Of a stretch of 64,000 bases of DNA, positions 14,075-21,205 are shown in pieces. The notes under the pieces were generated by a model. It saw nothing but the letters and a program-made list of their open reading frames with translations. It was not told the origin of the DNA and searched no databases. Origin of the DNA: Jiella sonneratiae (lineage in GTDB: Bacteria; Pseudomonadota; Alphaproteobacteria; Rhizobiales; Rhizobiaceae); NCBI RefSeq assembly GCF_017353515.1, contig NZ_JAFMPY010000008.1, positions 124,001 through 188,000 of the forward strand. The letters are read 5' to 3'. Each line of letters opens with the position of its first letter. Within the stretch, counting starts at the first letter, position 1. Made by a program: the position numbers and the translations under genes.

Positions 14075-14332
14075 CTACCTGCCTGACACCTGGTCATCGG
14101 CCGCCGGCGGCACGTCGGGCGCCGCGTCGAGACGTCTCGTCAGTTCGCGCTTGGAAACGAAAACTTCGACCCGCTGGTCCAGCGACTCCCGCAATACGCT
14201 TCGCGCTGCCGTCTGAAAGGCGAGCCGATCCTCATTCGGGTCTCCGACCGCTTCCCATGTGGCGTGCTCACTCAGATCGTAATCTTCCTGCTCGTCTTCG
14301 GTCAGGATCGGTTCTGGTTCACGGCCAGTCAT
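14075..14332 (-). CDS. BrnA-like antitoxin candidate
   Basis: An 85-residue protein with an acidic N-terminus (ILTEDEQEDYDLSEHATWE) and a basic segment SKRELTRRLDAAPD. Position and size fit the antitoxin of a type II pair: it follows the toxin-like gene with an ATGA overlap, toxin first, as in BrnT-BrnA. The DNA-binding part is not obvious, so the assignment rests mainly on context. In known pairs the antitoxin represses the operon as a complex with toxin. Confidence 0.6.
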   Translation of the reverse strand: MTGREPEPILTEDEQEDYDLSEHATWEAVGDPNEDRLAFQTAARSVLRESLDQRVEVFVSKRELTRRLDAAPDVPPAADDQVSGR

Positions 14333-14604
14333 TTGCCGCCTCCGAGAAAGTCGCGCGTCGCGCGCCGGCTGGGAAACATCGTCTTCATGAAGATCCCCGT
14401 CTCCAATTCCACATAAGGAACCACCCCGGCGTACTCATCGATCTCGACGACGAGCTGCTTCTGATGCGGATAACGTTGCACGTTGGGATGTCGGCGCCGC
14501 TCCAGAAGCCGCCCCTCGTCCAGCGCCTTCAAGACCTTTTCGAAGCCGAAGCCGTATCGAGCCTTCAGCGTCTCGTTCTTTTCGAGGCTCCACGAAAGTC
14601 GCAT
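14329..14604 (-). CDS. BrnT-like toxin candidate (type II toxin-antitoxin)
   Basis: A 91-residue RelE-superfamily-like protein. It has the BrnT-type opening (LSWSLEKNETLKARYGFGFE: Trp, Lys-Asn, then a helix) and a C-terminal strand-helix with MKTMFPSRRATRDFLG. The middle HPNVQRYPHQKQLVVEID resembles the substrate face of the family. BrnT toxins are ribonucleases that stop translation. ATG 14604 is preferred to an upstream TTG at 14610. The stop overlaps the antitoxin start (ATGA). Small size, location between two unrelated operons and opposite orientation suit a mobile module. Confidence 0.65.
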   Translation of the reverse strand: MRLSWSLEKNETLKARYGFGFEKVLKALDEGRLLERRRHPNVQRYPHQKQLVVEIDEYAGVVPYVELETGIFMKTMFPSRRATRDFLGGGK

Positions 14605-14650
14605 TGGCAAATCGAGGCCGCTCAGCGGTGGCGCTCAAGAGCCCATCGCC

Positions 14651-15133
14651 TCACCGGCCGCCGAGCGCGCGGGCGTCCTCAAAGGCGTATTGCCGGGTCG
14701 ACTCGCCGTCGAAATAGACGAAGACGAGGTGGTCGCGCTTCGACACCATCTGCGCCGGCAGCGGATCGTAGCGGAACGTCCGTCCGCCGAGATGCGGGGT
14801 GAGCGAGCCCATGTCGACCCGCCGCTCCTGCGAGACGCGAAGCAGCCTCAGCTCCGTCCCGTCGGAAAGCCTCGCCTCGAAGGGGATGCCGGCGAGCCGC
14901 AGGAAGCTGGTCGGATCGGGGGCCGACTGGAAGCCCTCGACGAAGGCCTTCTCGACAAGGTCGAGATCGGCCTCGTGATGATGGTGGTCGTCGTCTTCGG
15001 GCTCATGATCGCCTTTGTGCGGCACCTGCCACTGGGCGGTGCCGCGATGGTTGTGACCGTGGGCGCCGTGAGAGTGGCCGCCGCCGTGAGAGACGTCGTA
15101 GGGGTGGAAGTGATCGCCGTCGCCGCGATGCAT
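14651..15133 (-). CDS. Histidine-rich protein, possible metal chaperone of the guanidine locus
   Basis: A 160-residue protein of no family I can name. The first 53 residues hold 15 histidines, in HSHGAHGHNH and DDDHHHH clusters, a pattern seen in nickel or zinc storage and delivery proteins (HypB, UreE tails). The C-terminal ~100 residues are a compact domain without His clusters. There is no signal peptide, so it is cytoplasmic. ATG 15133 follows a GAGGAG ribosome site. It lies 263 bases downstream of the guanidine hydrolase-like gene on the same strand. That hydrolase family needs nickel, so a chaperone role is a reasonable inference but unproven. Confidence 0.7.
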   Translation of the reverse strand: MHRGDGDHFHPYDVSHGGGHSHGAHGHNHRGTAQWQVPHKGDHEPEDDDHHHHEADLDLVEKAFVEGFQSAPDPTSFLRLAGIPFEARLSDGTELRLLRVSQERRVDMGSLTPHLGGRTFRYDPLPAQMVSKRDHLVFVYFDGESTRQYAFEDARALGGR

Positions 15134-15396
15134 GGGGGCGTCTCCTCTTGCCTTCTGTTCAATGCTGCATCGTGCCGCGCTGCCGGAAAGTTTGGGAAGT
15201 CGCGCCGAGGCGCCCCCCCCCCGCCGCCCCGCCCGCCCGGGGGGGCCGCGCCCCCACGGGCGGGATTTTGGGGCCGGGCGCGGGGCGCCCCCCCCCGGGG
15301 CCGGGCGGGCCGGGGGGGCGCGCCTCGGCACAGAGGGAAGATCGGCGATCTCCCTCCCGGCATCTTCGCCCACTTCACCCAAGGCAACGCGGCTCG
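15134..15396 (-). other. Gap with extreme G/C low-complexity inverted repeat
   Basis: Between the His-rich gene and the hydrolase gene, about 15205-15330 consists almost wholly of C-runs then G-runs (up to 10 identical bases). GCCGAGGCG at the left mirrors CGCGCCTCGGC at the right, so a very stable hairpin could form. No reading frame here looks coding. It may be a real transcription-stopping hairpin or a consensus error. Confidence 0.5.
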
Positions 15397-16617
15397 TCAG
15401 AACGCCACCGGCTTGTCGATGATCGCCTTGTGCTTGCCGATGGTCCCGTGGGCGCACATCGAGCCGAGCGCCTCGACACAGACCCTGACGCCCATCAGCG
15501 CGGTGATGTCGGAGGTGTCGTAGGGCGGCGAGACTTCGACGACTTCGAGACCGCAGATTCCCGGCGCGCAGACGAGGCCGAGGATCTTCAGCGCCTCGCG
15601 CGGCAGGAAGCCGCCCGGCTCCGGCCAGCCGGTCCCCGGCACGAAGCCGCAGTCGAGCGAGTCGACGTCGAAGGAGATGTAGACCGCGTCGGCGTCCTTC
15701 CAGGCGAGTTCCAGCGCGATCTCGGCGGTCTTTTCGAGGCCGTACTGCTCGATGTCCTCGATGGTGAGGACGTTGGTTTGGCGGCGGAAGGCCTCCTTGG
15801 CGCCGGGGCGCGGCACCTGCCAGCCGCCGATGCCGAGCTGCACGAGGTTCACCGCCGGGACGTTCGGAAGGTTCGTCGCCCAGTACCAGGGCGTCGTGTG
15901 CATCCGCTCGTCGAGATCCTTTTCCTGGATGTCGATGTGCCGGTCGAAATGGATGATGCCGATGCGCTTCGAGGTGCATTCGGCGATGCCGCGCACACAA
16001 GGGAAGCCGATCGAATGGTCGCCGCCGAGCATCACCGGCAGGGCGCCGGAGGAGAAGACGTGGCTGACGCCGCGCGAGATCTGGTCGAAGCTCTTTTCCA
16101 GATTGCCGGGAATGGTGAAGACGTCGCCGGCGTCGCACAGCGTCATCTGTTCCCTGAGATCGACGCCGAGTTCGTAGTTGTAGGTGGTGTAGAGCGCCGA
16201 GATGCGGCGGATGCCCTGCGGGCCGAAACGGGTGCCGGGCCGGTAGGTCGTGCCCGAATCGAAGGGAATGCCGAGGACGGCGGCGTCGTACTTGCCGACG
16301 TCGCGGACGTTCTCGACATAGGGCGCCTTGAGGAAGGTGTTGATGCCGGCGAAATGCGGAAGCTCACCGCGCGCAAATGTCGGGATCGATTTGTCGGTGA
16401 TCGAGTCGGCACCGGGCAGGCCCATGTCGAGCGCCCATTTGACCTCGCGCTTCCAGCCTTCGCCGGAGAGCTTGTCCTCGGCCTCCAGCGCCTTCCAGCC
16501 GCGCGTCTCCTTGGCGTCGAAATTCGGGTGGTGGCGGTGGGCGCGCTCCGGCCCGATGCGGGCGCCGGCCCTGCGGCCGCGGCGCGACGGGGCGTCGAAA
16601 CGGATGTCTTCATGCAT
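15397..16617 (-). CDS. gdmH: Ureohydrolase, probable guanidine hydrolase (GdmH/Sll1077-like)
   Basis: A 406-residue arginase/agmatinase-superfamily enzyme expected to split guanidine into ammonia and urea. All six metal ligands are present: His201 (GGDHS), Asp225, His227 and Asp229 (HFDRHID), Asp317 and Asp319 (SFDVDS). Classical agmatinases have about 310 residues and DAHxD; this one has an N-terminal extension of ~90 residues, FDRHIDIQEKDLDERMHTTP and VPGTGWPEPGGF, which I recall as features of the Ni-dependent cyanobacterial guanidine hydrolase Sll1077. The operon behind a guanidine-I riboswitch supports guanidine over agmatine. Start: ATG 16617 has AGGAG nine bases upstream; ATG 16647, overlapping the previous stop (ATGA), is the alternative. 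Confidence 0.85.
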   Translation of the reverse strand: MHEDIRFDAPSRRGRRAGARIGPERAHRHHPNFDAKETRGWKALEAEDKLSGEGWKREVKWALDMGLPGADSITDKSIPTFARGELPHFAGINTFLKAPYVENVRDVGKYDAAVLGIPFDSGTTYRPGTRFGPQGIRRISALYTTYNYELGVDLREQMTLCDAGDVFTIPGNLEKSFDQISRGVSHVFSSGALPVMLGGDHSIGFPCVRGIAECTSKRIGIIHFDRHIDIQEKDLDERMHTTPWYWATNLPNVPAVNLVQLGIGGWQVPRPGAKEAFRRQTNVLTIEDIEQYGLEKTAEIALELAWKDADAVYISFDVDSLDCGFVPGTGWPEPGGFLPREALKILGLVCAPGICGLEVVEVSPPYDTSDITALMGVRVCVEALGSMCAHGTIGKHKAIIDKPVAF

Positions 16618-16643
16618 GAAAGGCTTCTCCTCGCTGATGGCCG

Positions 16644-17486
16644 TCATTGCCCGATGGCCGGGGCGGCGCGCTCGCGGCGCGGGCTCGCCGGCATGGAAAG
16701 TGTCGCTTCGAGATCGGCGGTCTCGTGCGGGGATGGCCCGGTCCCCTCGCCGGCCGCATTCGCGGCCTTGCGGTGGAGCGGCAGATCGTAGGTCACGGTC
16801 GCCCCGTAGGCCGCGGGAAACTGCGGATCGTGGCGGATCTTGTCGAAGACCAGAAGCCGCGTGCCCAGCTTGAAGGCCTCCTTTATGTCGTGGGTGACCA
16901 TGAAGATGGTCATCGCGGTCTCGCGCCAGATGTCCTCGATGAGGACGTGCATGTCCTGGCGCGTGCCGGGATCGAGGGCGCCGAAGGGCTCGTCGAGAAG
17001 AAGGATCCGGGGCTTCCTCAAAAGCGCCTGGGCGATCGCGAGGCGCTGCTGCATGCCGCCGGAAAGCTGGGCGGGGTAGCGGCGCGCCGCATGGGAAAGG
17101 CCGATCTTCTCCATCAGCGCCTCGGCTTCCTCGCGCGCCTTGCGCCGCCGGCCGCCGAACAGCCGGCCGAAGAACGGCGATGCCTCGATCTCCGCCGGCA
17201 GGACGAGATTGTCGATGACCGTCAGATGCGGAAACACCGAATATTTCTGGAAGACCACCCCGCGGTCCGGTCCCGGCTCGGGAGCGATCGGCGCTCCCTC
17301 GATCGCGATCGTGCCGCGATCTGCCCGCTCCTGCCCGAGCAGCAGCCTGAGGAAGGTCGACTTGCCGCAGCCCGACGCCCCGACGATGGTGACGAACTCG
17401 CCCTTTTCGACGTCGAGGGACAGGCGCTCGAGAATCGGCGCGTCGCCGTAGCGCTTGGCGATGTTTGAGACCGCAACGAAGCTCAA
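16644..17486 (-). CDS. ABC transporter ATP-binding protein (nitrate/taurine type, guanidine locus)
   Basis: A 280-residue ATPase of the SsuB/NrtD/TauB group. Walker A is GASGCGKST, the signature LSGGMQQR, Walker B ILLLDEP and the switch His in VTHDIKEAF. A hydrophilic C-terminal tail of about 45 residues is extra. The start is a TTG at 17486 overlapping the permease stop (TTGA); the protein then opens with the standard FVAVSNIAKRYGD. It energises import with the permease and binding protein of this locus; the predicted cargo is guanidine, judged from the riboswitch. Confidence 0.88.
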   Translation of the reverse strand: MSFVAVSNIAKRYGDAPILERLSLDVEKGEFVTIVGASGCGKSTFLRLLLGQERADRGTIAIEGAPIAPEPGPDRGVVFQKYSVFPHLTVIDNLVLPAEIEASPFFGRLFGGRRRKAREEAEALMEKIGLSHAARRYPAQLSGGMQQRLAIAQALLRKPRILLLDEPFGALDPGTRQDMHVLIEDIWRETAMTIFMVTHDIKEAFKLGTRLLVFDKIRHDPQFPAAYGATVTYDLPLHRKAANAAGEGTGPSPHETADLEATLSMPASPRRERAAPAIGQ

Positions 17487-18304
17487 AGGCTCGCCCCCTT
17501 GAGATGGGCCCAGGGAAACAGCCGCCGCGAGGCGAAGGACAGGCACCGGTCCGTCACATAGGCGAGCAGCGTGATCCAGGCGACGTAGGGCAGGATGACG
17601 TCCATCGCGAGATAGCGGCGCACCAGAAAGATCCGGTAGCCGAGCCCCTCCGTCGCGGCGATCGCCTCGGCCGAGATCAGGAAGATCCAGGCCGGGATGA
17701 GGCCGATCCGCAATGCCGCGATCAGCACCGGCCAGACCTGCGGCAGGAAGATGCGGGCGATGATCTGCCAGCTCGAGGCGCCGAGCGTCTGCGCCTTGAC
17801 GATCTCCTCCTCGGGGATCGCGAGCACCGCCTGGGCGAGCGTGCGGATCATCGCCGGGGTGGTGCCGATGACGATCAGCCCGATCTTCGCCGCCTCGCCG
17901 AGGCCGAGGGTGATGAAGAGGATCGGCAGGATGGTGATCGGCGGAATCAGCGAGAAGGCGGCGACGAAGGGGGCGAAGAGCGCCCGCGCATAGGGAAAGA
18001 AGCCGGCGAGGCAGCCGACGACGAGCGCGATGGCGGCGGAAATGCCGAGGCCGGCGAAAAGGCGCTCCAGGCTCGCCAGGGTGTCGGCGAAGAACAGGAG
18101 ATCGCCGGAGCGGCGATCCGGCGTGAAGGCGAGATCCCACATCGACTGGCCCATCGTCGCCAGCGACGGCAGCAGCTTGTCGGAGGGGTTCTCGGCGAGC
18201 CGGATCTGGCTGGCGATCACATAGGCGGCGACCAGGGCGGCGAAGGGAAGCACCGCCAGCCAGACCGCCCCGGCGCGGGTCGGGCGCAGATTGATCAGCC
18301 GCAT
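17483..18304 (-). CDS. ABC transporter permease (nitrate/taurine type, guanidine locus)
   Basis: A 273-residue BPD_transp_1 inner-membrane permease with about six helices. The EAA-loop region that contacts the ATPase is in EEEIVKAQTLGASSWQIIARIFLPQVWP. Relatives carry nitrate, sulfonates or, in ykkC-controlled operons, guanidine or urea-like solutes. ATG 18304 overlaps the upstream gene by 10 bases and its stop overlaps the ATPase start, so translation is likely coupled along the operon. Confidence 0.9.
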   Translation of the reverse strand: MRLINLRPTRAGAVWLAVLPFAALVAAYVIASQIRLAENPSDKLLPSLATMGQSMWDLAFTPDRRSGDLLFFADTLASLERLFAGLGISAAIALVVGCLAGFFPYARALFAPFVAAFSLIPPITILPILFITLGLGEAAKIGLIVIGTTPAMIRTLAQAVLAIPEEEIVKAQTLGASSWQIIARIFLPQVWPVLIAALRIGLIPAWIFLISAEAIAATEGLGYRIFLVRRYLAMDVILPYVAWITLLAYVTDRCLSFASRRLFPWAHLKGASL

Positions 18305-18996
18305 GGCAGCGCCTCCTCCTCCGGGACGATCCGGCCTTCCAGCCAGGGATGGGTCGAGAGGCGGACCTGCCAGCCCGCGGCGCTCTTCTCTTCGAGGGAC
18401 GCGACCATCGAGCTCCGCCACAAGAGGGCGGCGCGGTCGAGGGCGGCGACCGGCGCAAAGGGATCGATGCCGGGCGGCGCGGCGGGCCGCGGCTCGATCC
18501 GCATGCGGAACCTTCCTGCCGTGAGGAGGATCTCCGCCGGCGGCCCGGACGCCCGGCCCCGCGCCGCCACCTCGAACCCGTCGCGCGAACCGGCGACGAG
18601 CGTCCATTCCTCGCGGTAGGCCTCGGTGACGCCGTGCTCGACGAGACGCTCCTCGAACACCTCCATCCGGCCGATGTCGGGCGCCGCAACGGGCCGCAGG
18701 TCGAACAGCCTCAGCCAGCTGCAGTATGGCCCCTCCACCCGGGTCAGGCCGCAGAAGGCGTCCTGGCCGGCAAGCAAGGCGAGGTCGGCATCGCCGAGCC
18801 CCGCCAGCCCGGCGGAGCCGTCGATCGGCGGCCGGTCGAGCGGAACGCGGAGATCCGCATGCCAGCGTTCGGTCTGCAGCCAGAACACCCGCGCCGGCCG
18901 GTCGTCGGTCAGAAGGCCGGGGCCGGACCGCTGCAGCGCGGTGCGCTCCCACAGGCCGCGATAGGCGGAGGGAACGGGGGGCAGCGCCTCAAGCAT
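18295..18996 (-). CDS. Conserved-looking protein of unknown function in guanidine operon
   Basis: A 233-residue protein without signal peptide or membrane segment. The start YRGLWERTALQRSG, a DDRPARVFWLQTERWHADLRVP segment and a repeated pattern in the second half suggest a beta-rich fold, weakly reminiscent of Hri1-like proteins; that likeness is from memory and low confidence. No catalytic motif is evident. It overlaps the oxygenase gene upstream by 8 bases and the permease gene downstream by 10, so it is firmly part of the operon. A role in sensing or processing the guanidino substrate is possible but not shown. Confidence 0.7.
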   Translation of the reverse strand: MLEALPPVPSAYRGLWERTALQRSGPGLLTDDRPARVFWLQTERWHADLRVPLDRPPIDGSAGLAGLGDADLALLAGQDAFCGLTRVEGPYCSWLRLFDLRPVAAPDIGRMEVFEERLVEHGVTEAYREEWTLVAGSRDGFEVAARGRASGPPAEILLTAGRFRMRIEPRPAAPPGIDPFAPVAALDRAALLWRSSMVASLEEKSAAGWQVRLSTHPWLEGRIVPEEEALPCG

Positions 18997-20038
18997 TCGC
19001 GGCGGGCTTTCGGCGCGCCGACTGGCCGAAGGAGGAGAGCGCCTTCGAGCCTTCCGGCAGGACCAGTTCGCCCCGCTCCAGCCGCTGGCGCAGATAGGTG
19101 AAGCTCTGGATGGTCTGGGCGTAGAGATGATCGCCGGCCCGGATCGGGGTGTAGCGCGGCGACGGCGCGGGACCTGCGACCTCGGGCAGCGGCGCCACTT
19201 CCGTGTGGTAGTCGCAGGCGAAGAACAGCGGGAAGGAATAACGCTCCTCCTTCACCTTGCGCACGCGGTGCGAGGTCGCCACGAAGCGGCCGCCGGTCCA
19301 GACCTCCATCATGTCGCCGATGTTGACGACGAAGGCGTCGTCGAGCAGCGGCACGTCGATCCACTCGCCGTCGCCGTTCATCACCTCGAGGCCCGGCGCC
19401 GTCGGCAAGAGGAGGGTGAAGCATTCGTAGTCGGTGTGCGCGCCGATCCCCTGCACGTCCTCGGCGCTCGGATCGAACGGGTAGTGGATCAGCCGCAGCT
19501 GGCTCGGCGGGTTGGTGACGAAGCCGTCGAAGAAGGTCTCTTCCACCCCGAGCGCCAGGGCAAAGCCTTTGAGGAGGTGCCGGCCGAGATCGAACACGTC
19601 GTCGTAATAGCCCTCCACCGCCTCGCGGAAGCCGGGAAGCTCCGGCCACTGGTTCGGGCCGATCATCGGCGTACCCGCGACGACATCCGGATGGTCGGGG
19701 GCGACCTCGCGGCCGAGGTCGAGCGCTTCCTTGCGGTCGCGCTTGCCGCCGACCATCACCTCCTCGCCCTCCGGCACGTAGCCGCGGTGGTTGCCGGAGC
19801 GTCCGATATGGATCGCCATCTTCGCTTCCTCGGGCAGCGCGAAGAAGCTGCGCGTCGCGGAAAGCAGCGCCTCGCGCCGCCGGCGATCGACGGGATGGCC
19901 GGTGACGTAGAAGAAGCCGACCTCGCCGGCCGCCCGGCCGAGCTTTTCGGCGACCTTTTCGCGGTTGGCGGGATCGGACGAATAGAGGCCGGAAACGTCG
20001 ACGACCGGCAGTTCGGTGAAAGCGGCCTGCTGTGCCAT
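18989..20038 (-). CDS. Fe(II)/2-oxoglutarate-dependent oxygenase, isopenicillin-N-synthase family
   Basis: A 349-residue cytoplasmic non-haem iron oxygenase. The N-terminal DIOX_N region (FTELPVVDVSGLYS, GFFYVTGHPV) is followed by the jelly-roll core with the iron triad His201, Asp203 (GAHTDYECFTLL) and His257 (TSHRV), and Arg267-x-Ser269 (RYSFPLFF) for the cosubstrate carboxylate. Relatives hydroxylate amino acids and small metabolites; plant members hydroxylate homoarginine and so release guanidine. Its place between the binding protein and permease genes of a guanidine-riboswitch operon suggests it acts on a guanidino compound. That is inference; substrate unknown. Confidence 0.85.
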   Translation of the reverse strand: MAQQAAFTELPVVDVSGLYSSDPANREKVAEKLGRAAGEVGFFYVTGHPVDRRRREALLSATRSFFALPEEAKMAIHIGRSGNHRGYVPEGEEVMVGGKRDRKEALDLGREVAPDHPDVVAGTPMIGPNQWPELPGFREAVEGYYDDVFDLGRHLLKGFALALGVEETFFDGFVTNPPSQLRLIHYPFDPSAEDVQGIGAHTDYECFTLLLPTAPGLEVMNGDGEWIDVPLLDDAFVVNIGDMMEVWTGGRFVATSHRVRKVKEERYSFPLFFACDYHTEVAPLPEVAGPAPSPRYTPIRAGDHLYAQTIQSFTYLRQRLERGELVLPEGSKALSSFGQSARRKPAANA

Positions 20039-20131
20039 CCGCGTGGCTCCGTCATGGGGGGTCGAAAGAAGGGGCGGGCCGCCGCCGGGGCATGCCGCGG
20101 CGGCGGGTCGGGCGGCCGGATCCGAGCCGGA

Positions 20132-21205
20132 TCAGAGGCCGCCGGTTTCGGCCATTTTGACGAAGCTGTCGTCGAACCGCAGCTTGATGTTGTTGGTGTC
20201 GCCGTAGGTCGAGCCGTCGGGGAAGGTCACGCCGACGAATTCCGGGCTCGGCGCGCCCTGGCCGAGGATGCCGTGATCGTAGAGGAACTCGGCGACGAAC
20301 TTCGTGGTCTTCGGCAGCTGGCCGCCGCTGGTGAAGGCGAGGAGATCCTTCGGCGTGTAGAACAGCGCGGTCGCGGCGAGCTGGCTCTTGTAGCCTTCAA
20401 GGTCAGTGCCGGACGCCGCCGCCATCGCCTCCAGCGCCTTCTTGCCTTCCGGCGTATCCGACTTCATCAGGTCGAGCACCTCGAACCAGGCGCCGACGAG
20501 TGCCTTGCCGAAGTTAGGATTGTCCTTCAGCGTCTCAGTGTTGACCGCCATCATGTCGATGATCTCGCCGGGAATCTTGGAGGAATCGAAGACGAGATGG
20601 CCGCCCTGGTCGTCGACGATTTGCGACAGCATCGGATTCCACGTCGCCACCGCCGTGACCTCCGGCGTCCCGTAGACGGAGACCATGTCCGCGTCGGAGG
20701 TGTTCACCGTGGTGATGTCCCGCTCGGTCATGCCGACGCTTTCCAGGGCGCGGACGAGGAAATAGTGGGAGACCGAGAACTCGACGAGATTGACCCGCTG
20801 GCCCTTGACCGCCGCGAGATCGGTCTCGTTCTTCAGGACGAGGCCGTCATTGCCGTTGGAATAGTCGCCGGCGATGAGGGCGGTGGTGTCGACGCCGCCG
20901 GCGGCGGGGATCGACAGGGCGTCCATGTTGGTCATGGCGCAGCCGTCGTACTGGCCGGCGGTGTACTGGTTGATCGACTCGACGTAGTCGTTGATCTGCA
21001 CGGCCTTGATGGCGATGCCGTATTTGTCGGCCCACTTCTTCAGGATGCCGGAATCCTGCATGTAGCCCCAGGGCATCCAGCCGGCATAGATCGACCAGCA
21101 GACGGAAAAGTCCTTCTTCTCCGCGGCCGCGGCTGTCCCCGTGCCGATGGCTGGAAGGCTGAGGAGCGAGACGGCGAGCGCCAGGGCGGAGGCGAGATTT
21201 CGCAT
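20132..21205 (-). CDS. ABC transporter substrate-binding protein (guanidine locus)
   Basis: A 357-residue periplasmic binding protein of the NMT1/SsuA/TauA type. A Sec signal peptide ends near AAAAEKKD at about residue 30. The CWSIYAGWMPWGYM opening resembles proteins annotated as putative urea-type binding proteins in ykkC-controlled operons. ATG 21205 has an AAGGAAG ribosome site. It is the first gene after the guanidine-I riboswitch, about 108 bases downstream of it, with a 93-base gap before the oxygenase gene. The ligand is inferred to be guanidine or a guanidino compound. Confidence 0.88.
   Translation of the reverse strand: MRNLASALALAVSLLSLPAIGTGTAAAAEKKDFSVCWSIYAGWMPWGYMQDSGILKKWADKYGIAIKAVQINDYVESINQYTAGQYDGCAMTNMDALSIPAAGGVDTTALIAGDYSNGNDGLVLKNETDLAAVKGQRVNLVEFSVSHYFLVRALESVGMTERDITTVNTSDADMVSVYGTPEVTAVATWNPMLSQIVDDQGGHLVFDSSKIPGEIIDMMAVNTETLKDNPNFGKALVGAWFEVLDLMKSDTPEGKKALEAMAAASGTDLEGYKSQLAATALFYTPKDLLAFTSGGQLPKTTKFVAEFLYDHGILGQGAPSPEFVGVTFPDGSTYGDTNNIKLRFDDSFVKMAETGGL

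Follow-up and report, generated by a model that had tools for sequence, protein, structure and literature searches.

How a guanidine hydrolase obtains its nickel where the HypA and HypB chaperones are missing, and what additional enzymes might contribute to such a pathway, are questions raised by a locus of Jiella sonneratiae. In the 64,000-nucleotide (nt) stretch of DNA analyzed here (hereafter the window; the genome, 98% complete, comprises 76 contigs), seven genes lie on the minus strand between positions 21205 and 14651. They had initially been annotated as a possible guanidine uptake and hydrolysis operon whose extra members were an Fe/2-oxoglutarate (2OG)-type oxygenase, an unassigned protein and a histidine-rich (His-rich) protein. 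Our results suggest that the operon is likely a guanidine-switched unit for the assimilation of both guanidine and methylguanidine, in which the His-rich protein would most probably serve as a nickel loader or store replacing HypA/HypB. The nickel supply of guanidine hydrolases that lack HypA/HypB is an open question in print: the passages used here from a study of comammox Nitrospira (PMC11410670) report that no dedicated loader was found for comammox and speculate that the recombinant enzyme was incompletely loaded with nickel. A small His-rich protein that strictly co-occurs with the hydrolase is a testable answer for Alphaproteobacteria, and might aid the production of active recombinant enzyme.

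The predicted guanidine hydrolase and its operon

By sequence, the product of the ureohydrolase gene (15397-16647) is of the GdmH type, that is, a putative nickel-type guanidine hydrolase of the ureohydrolase family, as had been proposed. Its nearest relatives in the Protein Data Bank (PDB) were the two solved guanidine hydrolases, 7esr/7oi1 and 9fek (E = 8.6e-159 and 1.3e-158), whereas the next-best ureohydrolase reached an E-value of 2.8e-47. The entry 7oi1 is the GdmH of Synechocystis and 9fek the enzyme of N. inopinata, for which the passages used from PMC11410670 give ten metal-ligand or specificity residues (T105, H182, D207, H209, D211, H222, D299, D301, W313 and E344). All ten are identical in the window's protein (PDB alignment, numbering mapped by hand). 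It could be argued that agmatine or a guanidino acid is the true substrate and that the operon does not serve guanidine, as plasmid relatives are annotated as 'agmatinase family'. Such an identity was rejected and appears extremely improbable, considering that the NCBIfam agmatinase models scored below their cut-offs, that the solved guanidine hydrolases matched better by about 110 orders of magnitude in E-value, and that a guanidine-I riboswitch lies upstream. GdmH is thus predicted to hydrolyze guanidine to urea and ammonia. A gene for urease alpha was found elsewhere in the genome; urease would deal with the urea from GdmH and complete the route to ammonia. No urea or guanidine carboxylase scored over its cut-off in the genome, which agrees with the earlier statement that a carboxyguanidine route is missing.

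The riboswitch aptamer (RF00442; 21419-21315, minus strand), which the initial annotation had not named, was detected by cmscan at 90 bits against a gathering score of 63 (E = 7.2e-15, full model, positions 1-107). It is located outside the stretch 14651-21205, is the only copy in the genome, and would turn the operon on when guanidine is bound. Of eight related loci searched, all but L052, a cluster of another type, carried the same class (Gd-I); among these eight, the guanidine-II class (Gd-II) was found only in the carboxylase-type loci L055 and L056. Scans for sigma-70 promoters and for terminators gave counts that were not above those in shuffled sequences.

In the direction of transcription, the riboswitch is followed by genes for a binding protein, MgdH, MgdL, a permease, an ATPase, GdmH and the His-rich protein. 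The overlaps between genes noted before hold from mgdH through gdmH (4-10 nt): 8 nt for mgdH/mgdL (18996-18989), 10 nt for mgdL/permease (18304-18295), 4 nt for permease/ATPase if TTG at 17486 is the ATPase start, and 4 nt for ATPase/gdmH (16647-16644). Both ends of the operon are gapped: 93 nt separate mgdH from the preceding binding-protein gene, and the His-rich gene follows gdmH after 263 nt. The binding protein (20132-21205) belongs to the TIGR03427 family (NCBIfam, 532.7 bits against a cut-off of 333.9), and together with the permease (17483-18304; PF00528) and the ATPase (16644-17486, TTG start assumed; PF00005) forms an ATP-binding cassette (ABC) importer, which would take up guanidine and methylguanidine. 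The core gene order recurs in relatives, so the arrangement is not a matter of chance.

Some related loci contained further ureohydrolase genes. Additional copies with 32-36% identity to GdmH occurred in L052, L077 and L107; those in L052 and L077 are arranged in tandem, like the DmgH/MefH genes, and a gene for an MgdL homolog adjoins them in L052. A different assembly of guanidine use was observed on a Rubrobacter indicoceani plasmid (L186), where a GdmH-like gene (64%) is accompanied by symporter, formamidase and urease genes.

The His-rich protein and its possible role in nickel supply

The His-rich gene (14651-15133) proved to be a genuine member of the operon and not a stray neighbor. Using thresholds of E ≤1e-100 for GdmH and E ≤1e-3 for the His-rich protein, we identified GdmH or a near relative in 32 of the 297 genomes of the order and the His-rich protein in 31, all among the GdmH genomes; in all 31 the His-rich gene was downstream of gdmH on the same strand. 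Across the phylum (398 genomes), GdmH was present in seven genomes and the identical seven carried the His-rich protein. Where both frames were traced (33 loci, 29 from the order and 4 from the phylum sample), this arrangement was found throughout, the two genes being at most 477 nt apart and in some cases slightly overlapping; a single value of -101 nt depends on an uncertain start. One further locus (L069, genome G229) is not in the distance table as its gdmH has one in-frame stop; its gene order is unchanged. On plasmids, 7 of 11 GdmH records, all from Alphaproteobacteria and including Sinorhizobium fredii NGR234, had the His-rich gene beside gdmH, and the remaining four, from Actinomycetota, gave no match to it. 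Thus, in the Pseudomonadota genomes searched, the His-rich protein is found only beside GdmH, and this co-occurrence rules out a chance neighbor. The sole exception on the side of the enzyme was G140, whose 54% GdmH-like protein (L093, 8587-10508) lacks a His-rich gene. Since this protein has GTGS for GTGW, His-rich stretches of its own and an adjoining HupE/UreJ gene, we take it as a different ureohydrolase.

Histidine accounts for 17 of the 160 residues of the window's His-rich protein, and 15 of these 17 lie within the first 62 positions. In an alignment of 35 copies, H27 and N28 were invariant and H39 was present in 34; the N-terminal His arm is variable, and the conserved C-terminal part contains few histidines. 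The protein matched nothing in Pfam or NCBIfam, and therefore none of the nickel chaperone models in these libraries (HypA, HypB and others); four relatives had no significant Pfam match either. A profile search against the PDB (best E = 0.46) and a Foldseek comparison of a structural model with the PDB (best E = 0.35) gave no significant match; the model was built from only four sequences and had a mean predicted local distance difference test (pLDDT) score of 69, residues 61-160 lying in blocks of 76-93. A scan of viral contigs gave no further relatives, and no description of this family was found in the passages used from the openly licensed papers searched.

The earlier remark that HypA/HypB are absent holds for the whole genome. 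HypA had no match in the 76 contigs, and the single HypB match, at 76 bits against a cut-off of 121, is probably UreG. Among the 36 GdmH genomes, 8 had HypA, and 7 of these 8 also had a HypB match above the cut-off; in none of the 8 was HypA near gdmH by coordinates. HypA is therefore absent from 28 and HypB from 29 of these genomes, and the His-rich protein is present in 35. HypA/HypB is not defining for GdmH itself, as Nitrospira also lacks recognized chaperones. In addition, a HupE/UreJ gene (PF04955) follows the His-rich gene on the same strand in at least 9 of 39 loci, a lower bound because some loci end early, with 2-169 nt between the aligned stretches. The HupE/UreJ family is described as a nickel uptake transporter in the part of PMC11399263 used here.

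Co-occurrence, composition, neighboring nickel permeases and the missing Hyp proteins together point to a nickel partner. Our best inference is that alphaproteobacterial GdmH has a dedicated nickel-loading factor in the His-rich protein, which would bind nickel via its flexible N-terminal arm and load or store it for the enzyme. Several observations weigh against a dedicated loader. Urease alpha was matched in 35 of the 36 GdmH genomes, 33 of them strongly (E <1e-45), and the nickel helpers of urease could serve GdmH as well; the 263-nt gap suggests that the His-rich gene might be transcribed separately; and a dedicated loader does not seem to be universally needed, because two Rubrobacter plasmids carry a GdmH gene with no Hyp neighbor (in an incomplete gene table) and no His-rich match, and comammox Nitrospira has no recognized nickel loader in the passages used from PMC11410670. 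It is conceivable, though rather doubtful, that the pathway is as proposed and that the His-rich protein is instead a store or buffer for nickel, zinc or manganese, or a structural or regulatory subunit of GdmH, with urease accessory proteins loading the enzyme. The prevalence of urease agrees with such a role, and a conserved His-poor C-terminal part next to a variable His arm would suit GdmH binding plus storage. However, the full conservation of H27 and N28 and the almost full conservation of H39 speak for a defined site rather than a mere sponge, and G031 has the His-rich protein with no urease match, but its GdmH gene looks shortened. A nickel-loading or nickel-holding partner of GdmH is the role that we prefer.

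The surroundings of the His-rich gene showed other features. The 263-nt spacer that precedes it contains an imperfect 56-nt inverted repeat consisting almost only of G/C (15204-15329), and in G649, a genome of the same genus, the spacer is also long (341 nt). Directly 3' of the His-rich gene are two small overlapping frames on the minus strand (14075-14332 and 14329-14610) with no match in Pfam or NCBIfam, which resemble a toxin-antitoxin-type pair.

MgdH, MgdL and the probable use of methylguanidine

The oxygenase (18989-20038), correctly placed in the Fe/2OG type by the initial annotation (PF14226 and PF03171), and the formerly unassigned protein (18295-18996) are homologs of MgdH and MgdL, respectively. 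According to the parts of PMC12508155 (2025) used here, MgdH of Vreelandella boliviensis hydroxylates methylguanidine, and MgdL splits the product, N-(hydroxymethyl)guanidine. The reference strain LC1 corresponds to our locus L130, in which all four published primers match. The window's oxygenase shares 62% identity with V. boliviensis MgdH (432 bits), and H201, D203, H257, R266 and S268 are invariant in five aligned sequences. We take these residues to be the 2OG/Fe(II) ligand motifs HxD...H and RxS. In the second protein (32% identity), D48 and R50 align with D49 and R51 of V. boliviensis MgdL, described as catalytic by mutation in the same parts of PMC12508155, and are invariant in 19 aligned sequences. 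Its structural model is mostly beta (13 strands, mean pLDDT 91), which may fit the beta-barrel model reported there, and resembles lipocalin/FABP barrels weakly (best E = 0.01). Because the two extra enzymes match the published demethylation pair, the operon probably extends past guanidine. MgdH would hydroxylate the methyl group of methylguanidine with 2OG and O2, MgdL would cleave the resulting hemiaminal to guanidine and formaldehyde, a by-product, and GdmH would take over the guanidine. Importer, MgdH, MgdL, GdmH and urease would thus constitute a complete route from methylguanidine and guanidine to ammonia.

Certain findings do not favor this proposal. MgdL shares just 32% identity with its V. 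boliviensis counterpart; in the PDB, the oxygenase was closest to 9ovh (241 bits), whose annotation is that of an ethylene/succinate-forming enzyme; two formaldehyde dehydrogenase models both failed to reach their cut-offs in the genome; and cmscan detected no Gd-II switch in the window. In V. boliviensis, Gd-I binds guanidine and not methylguanidine, and Gd-II binds both (PMC12508155, in the parts used). With no Gd-II, methylguanidine may induce the operon only after its conversion to guanidine.

Five MgdH-type proteins, used as queries against named genomes, yielded at least 566 loci, of which the best 80 were kept. Among these best 80, GdmH was present in 3 loci (2 with MgdL no more than 2.5 kb from mgdH) and the carboxylase Gca in 32 (20 with MgdL), and 45 had neither in the fetched stretch (28 with MgdL). 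In a phylogenetic tree of 81 rows, from which L124, L139, L162 and L166 were left out owing to an in-frame stop in the matched stretch, the MgdH proteins of the window, Jiella sp. LLJ827, Roseibium aggregatum and Labrenzia sp. OB1, all linked to GdmH, formed a group (support 99/95). Its sister group comprised 12 carboxylase-linked rows, V. boliviensis among them, and the joint 16-row clade had support of 100/99. The fifth GdmH-linked MgdH (G155, L046) was a long branch apart from the other four. We withdrew the idea that mgdH entered GdmH operons at least twice, as a single clade was not rejected (p-AU = 0.297, five rows versus 74; L050 and L056 additionally left out of this test); given this value and the long branch of L046, a single origin may still account for the GdmH-linked genes.

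It is unlikely that the oxygenase and the lyase act on another guanidino compound (dimethylguanidine, another N-alkylguanidine or an arginine derivative) and release guanidine for GdmH from it. The parts of PMC12508155 used here report N,N-dimethylguanidine as a further substrate of V. boliviensis MgdH, and the class of the best PDB match is said there to release guanidine from arginine. Furthermore, MgdH-MgdL pairs with neither GdmH nor Gca in the fetched stretch, for example in mycobacteria, suggest that substrates may vary. On the other hand, the window's MgdH belongs to the sister group of the assayed enzyme, with 62% identity and 432 versus 241 bits, and the MgdL gene adjoins the oxygenase gene. 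An ethylene-forming or arginine-oxidizing 2OG enzyme was likewise judged less likely, the assayed MgdH being nearer by the same scores. Demethylation of methylguanidine is thus the function that we favor.

Few alphaproteobacterial loci were found to pair MgdH-MgdL with GdmH. The window and 28 other loci showed the complete set of genes for binding protein, permease, ATPase, GdmH and His-rich protein, and mgdH-mgdL accompanied them in 3 of these 29 (the window, L045 and L046); L045 and L114 appear to be one organism. A full GdmH locus of the same genus (G649, L065) was devoid of mgdH-mgdL. We found no GdmH-linked MgdH in the openly licensed papers searched. Overall, we lean slightly towards the more specific view that the His-rich proteins are a new family of dedicated nickel chaperones for alphaproteobacterial GdmH, replacing HypA/HypB, and that methylguanidine is demethylated into a nickel hydrolase, not a biotin carboxylase.

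Other combinations of these genes were also observed. The guanidine operon of a Roseibium locus with GdmH (L107) contained mgdH and no detected mgdL, and so did 12 Paraburkholderia- or Trinickia-type loci with Gca (L108-L113, L115-L119 and L134); these operons may rely on a different lyase or on none. In mycobacteria (L146, L158, L163, L165, L167, L169, L171, L173, L174, L178, L180, L181, L184 and L185), MgdL and MgdH are neighbors and form a separate clade, and the fetched stretches contained neither GdmH nor Gca.

Comparison with known guanidine systems

The accessory proteins encoded beside GdmH in Synechocystis are reportedly of the HypA/HypB type. The operon of that organism comprises Gd-I, an importer, GdmH and two nickel-loading accessory proteins, as outlined in the passages used from PMC12186494 and PMC11410670. 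The window shares with it the Gd-I switch, the ABC importer and GdmH; however, it has no HypA/HypB in operon or genome and the His-rich protein instead, and MgdH and MgdL are additional. The guanidinase locus of comammox Nitrospira likewise combines Gd-I with GdmH in the absence of Hyp chaperones, but has an APC-type permease in place of the ABC importer, and the same passages of PMC11410670 report no dedicated nickel-loading protein for it. The dimethylguanidine and metformin hydrolases DmgH/MefH are also nickel ureohydrolases for small guanidines, and a HupE homolog lies downstream in metformin operons, as in some GdmH loci; in contrast, they are heteromeric tandem enzymes accompanied by HypA/HypB (PMC11399263, in the part used). 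The DmgH/MefH-like tandem genes of related loci have 32-36% identity to GdmH.

The methylguanidine operon of V. boliviensis (L130) consists of Gd-I, an ABC importer, cgdB/A, Gd-II, gca, mgdH, mgdL and atzF, as given in the parts of PMC12508155 used here. Both operons have the Gd-I switch, the importer and homologs of MgdH and MgdL, whereas the guanidine carboxylase of V. boliviensis is replaced by GdmH in the window, which lacks Gd-II and has the added His-rich gene. The operon of J. sonneratiae would extend methylguanidine use, known with a carboxylase route in V. boliviensis, to an ATP-independent hydrolase.

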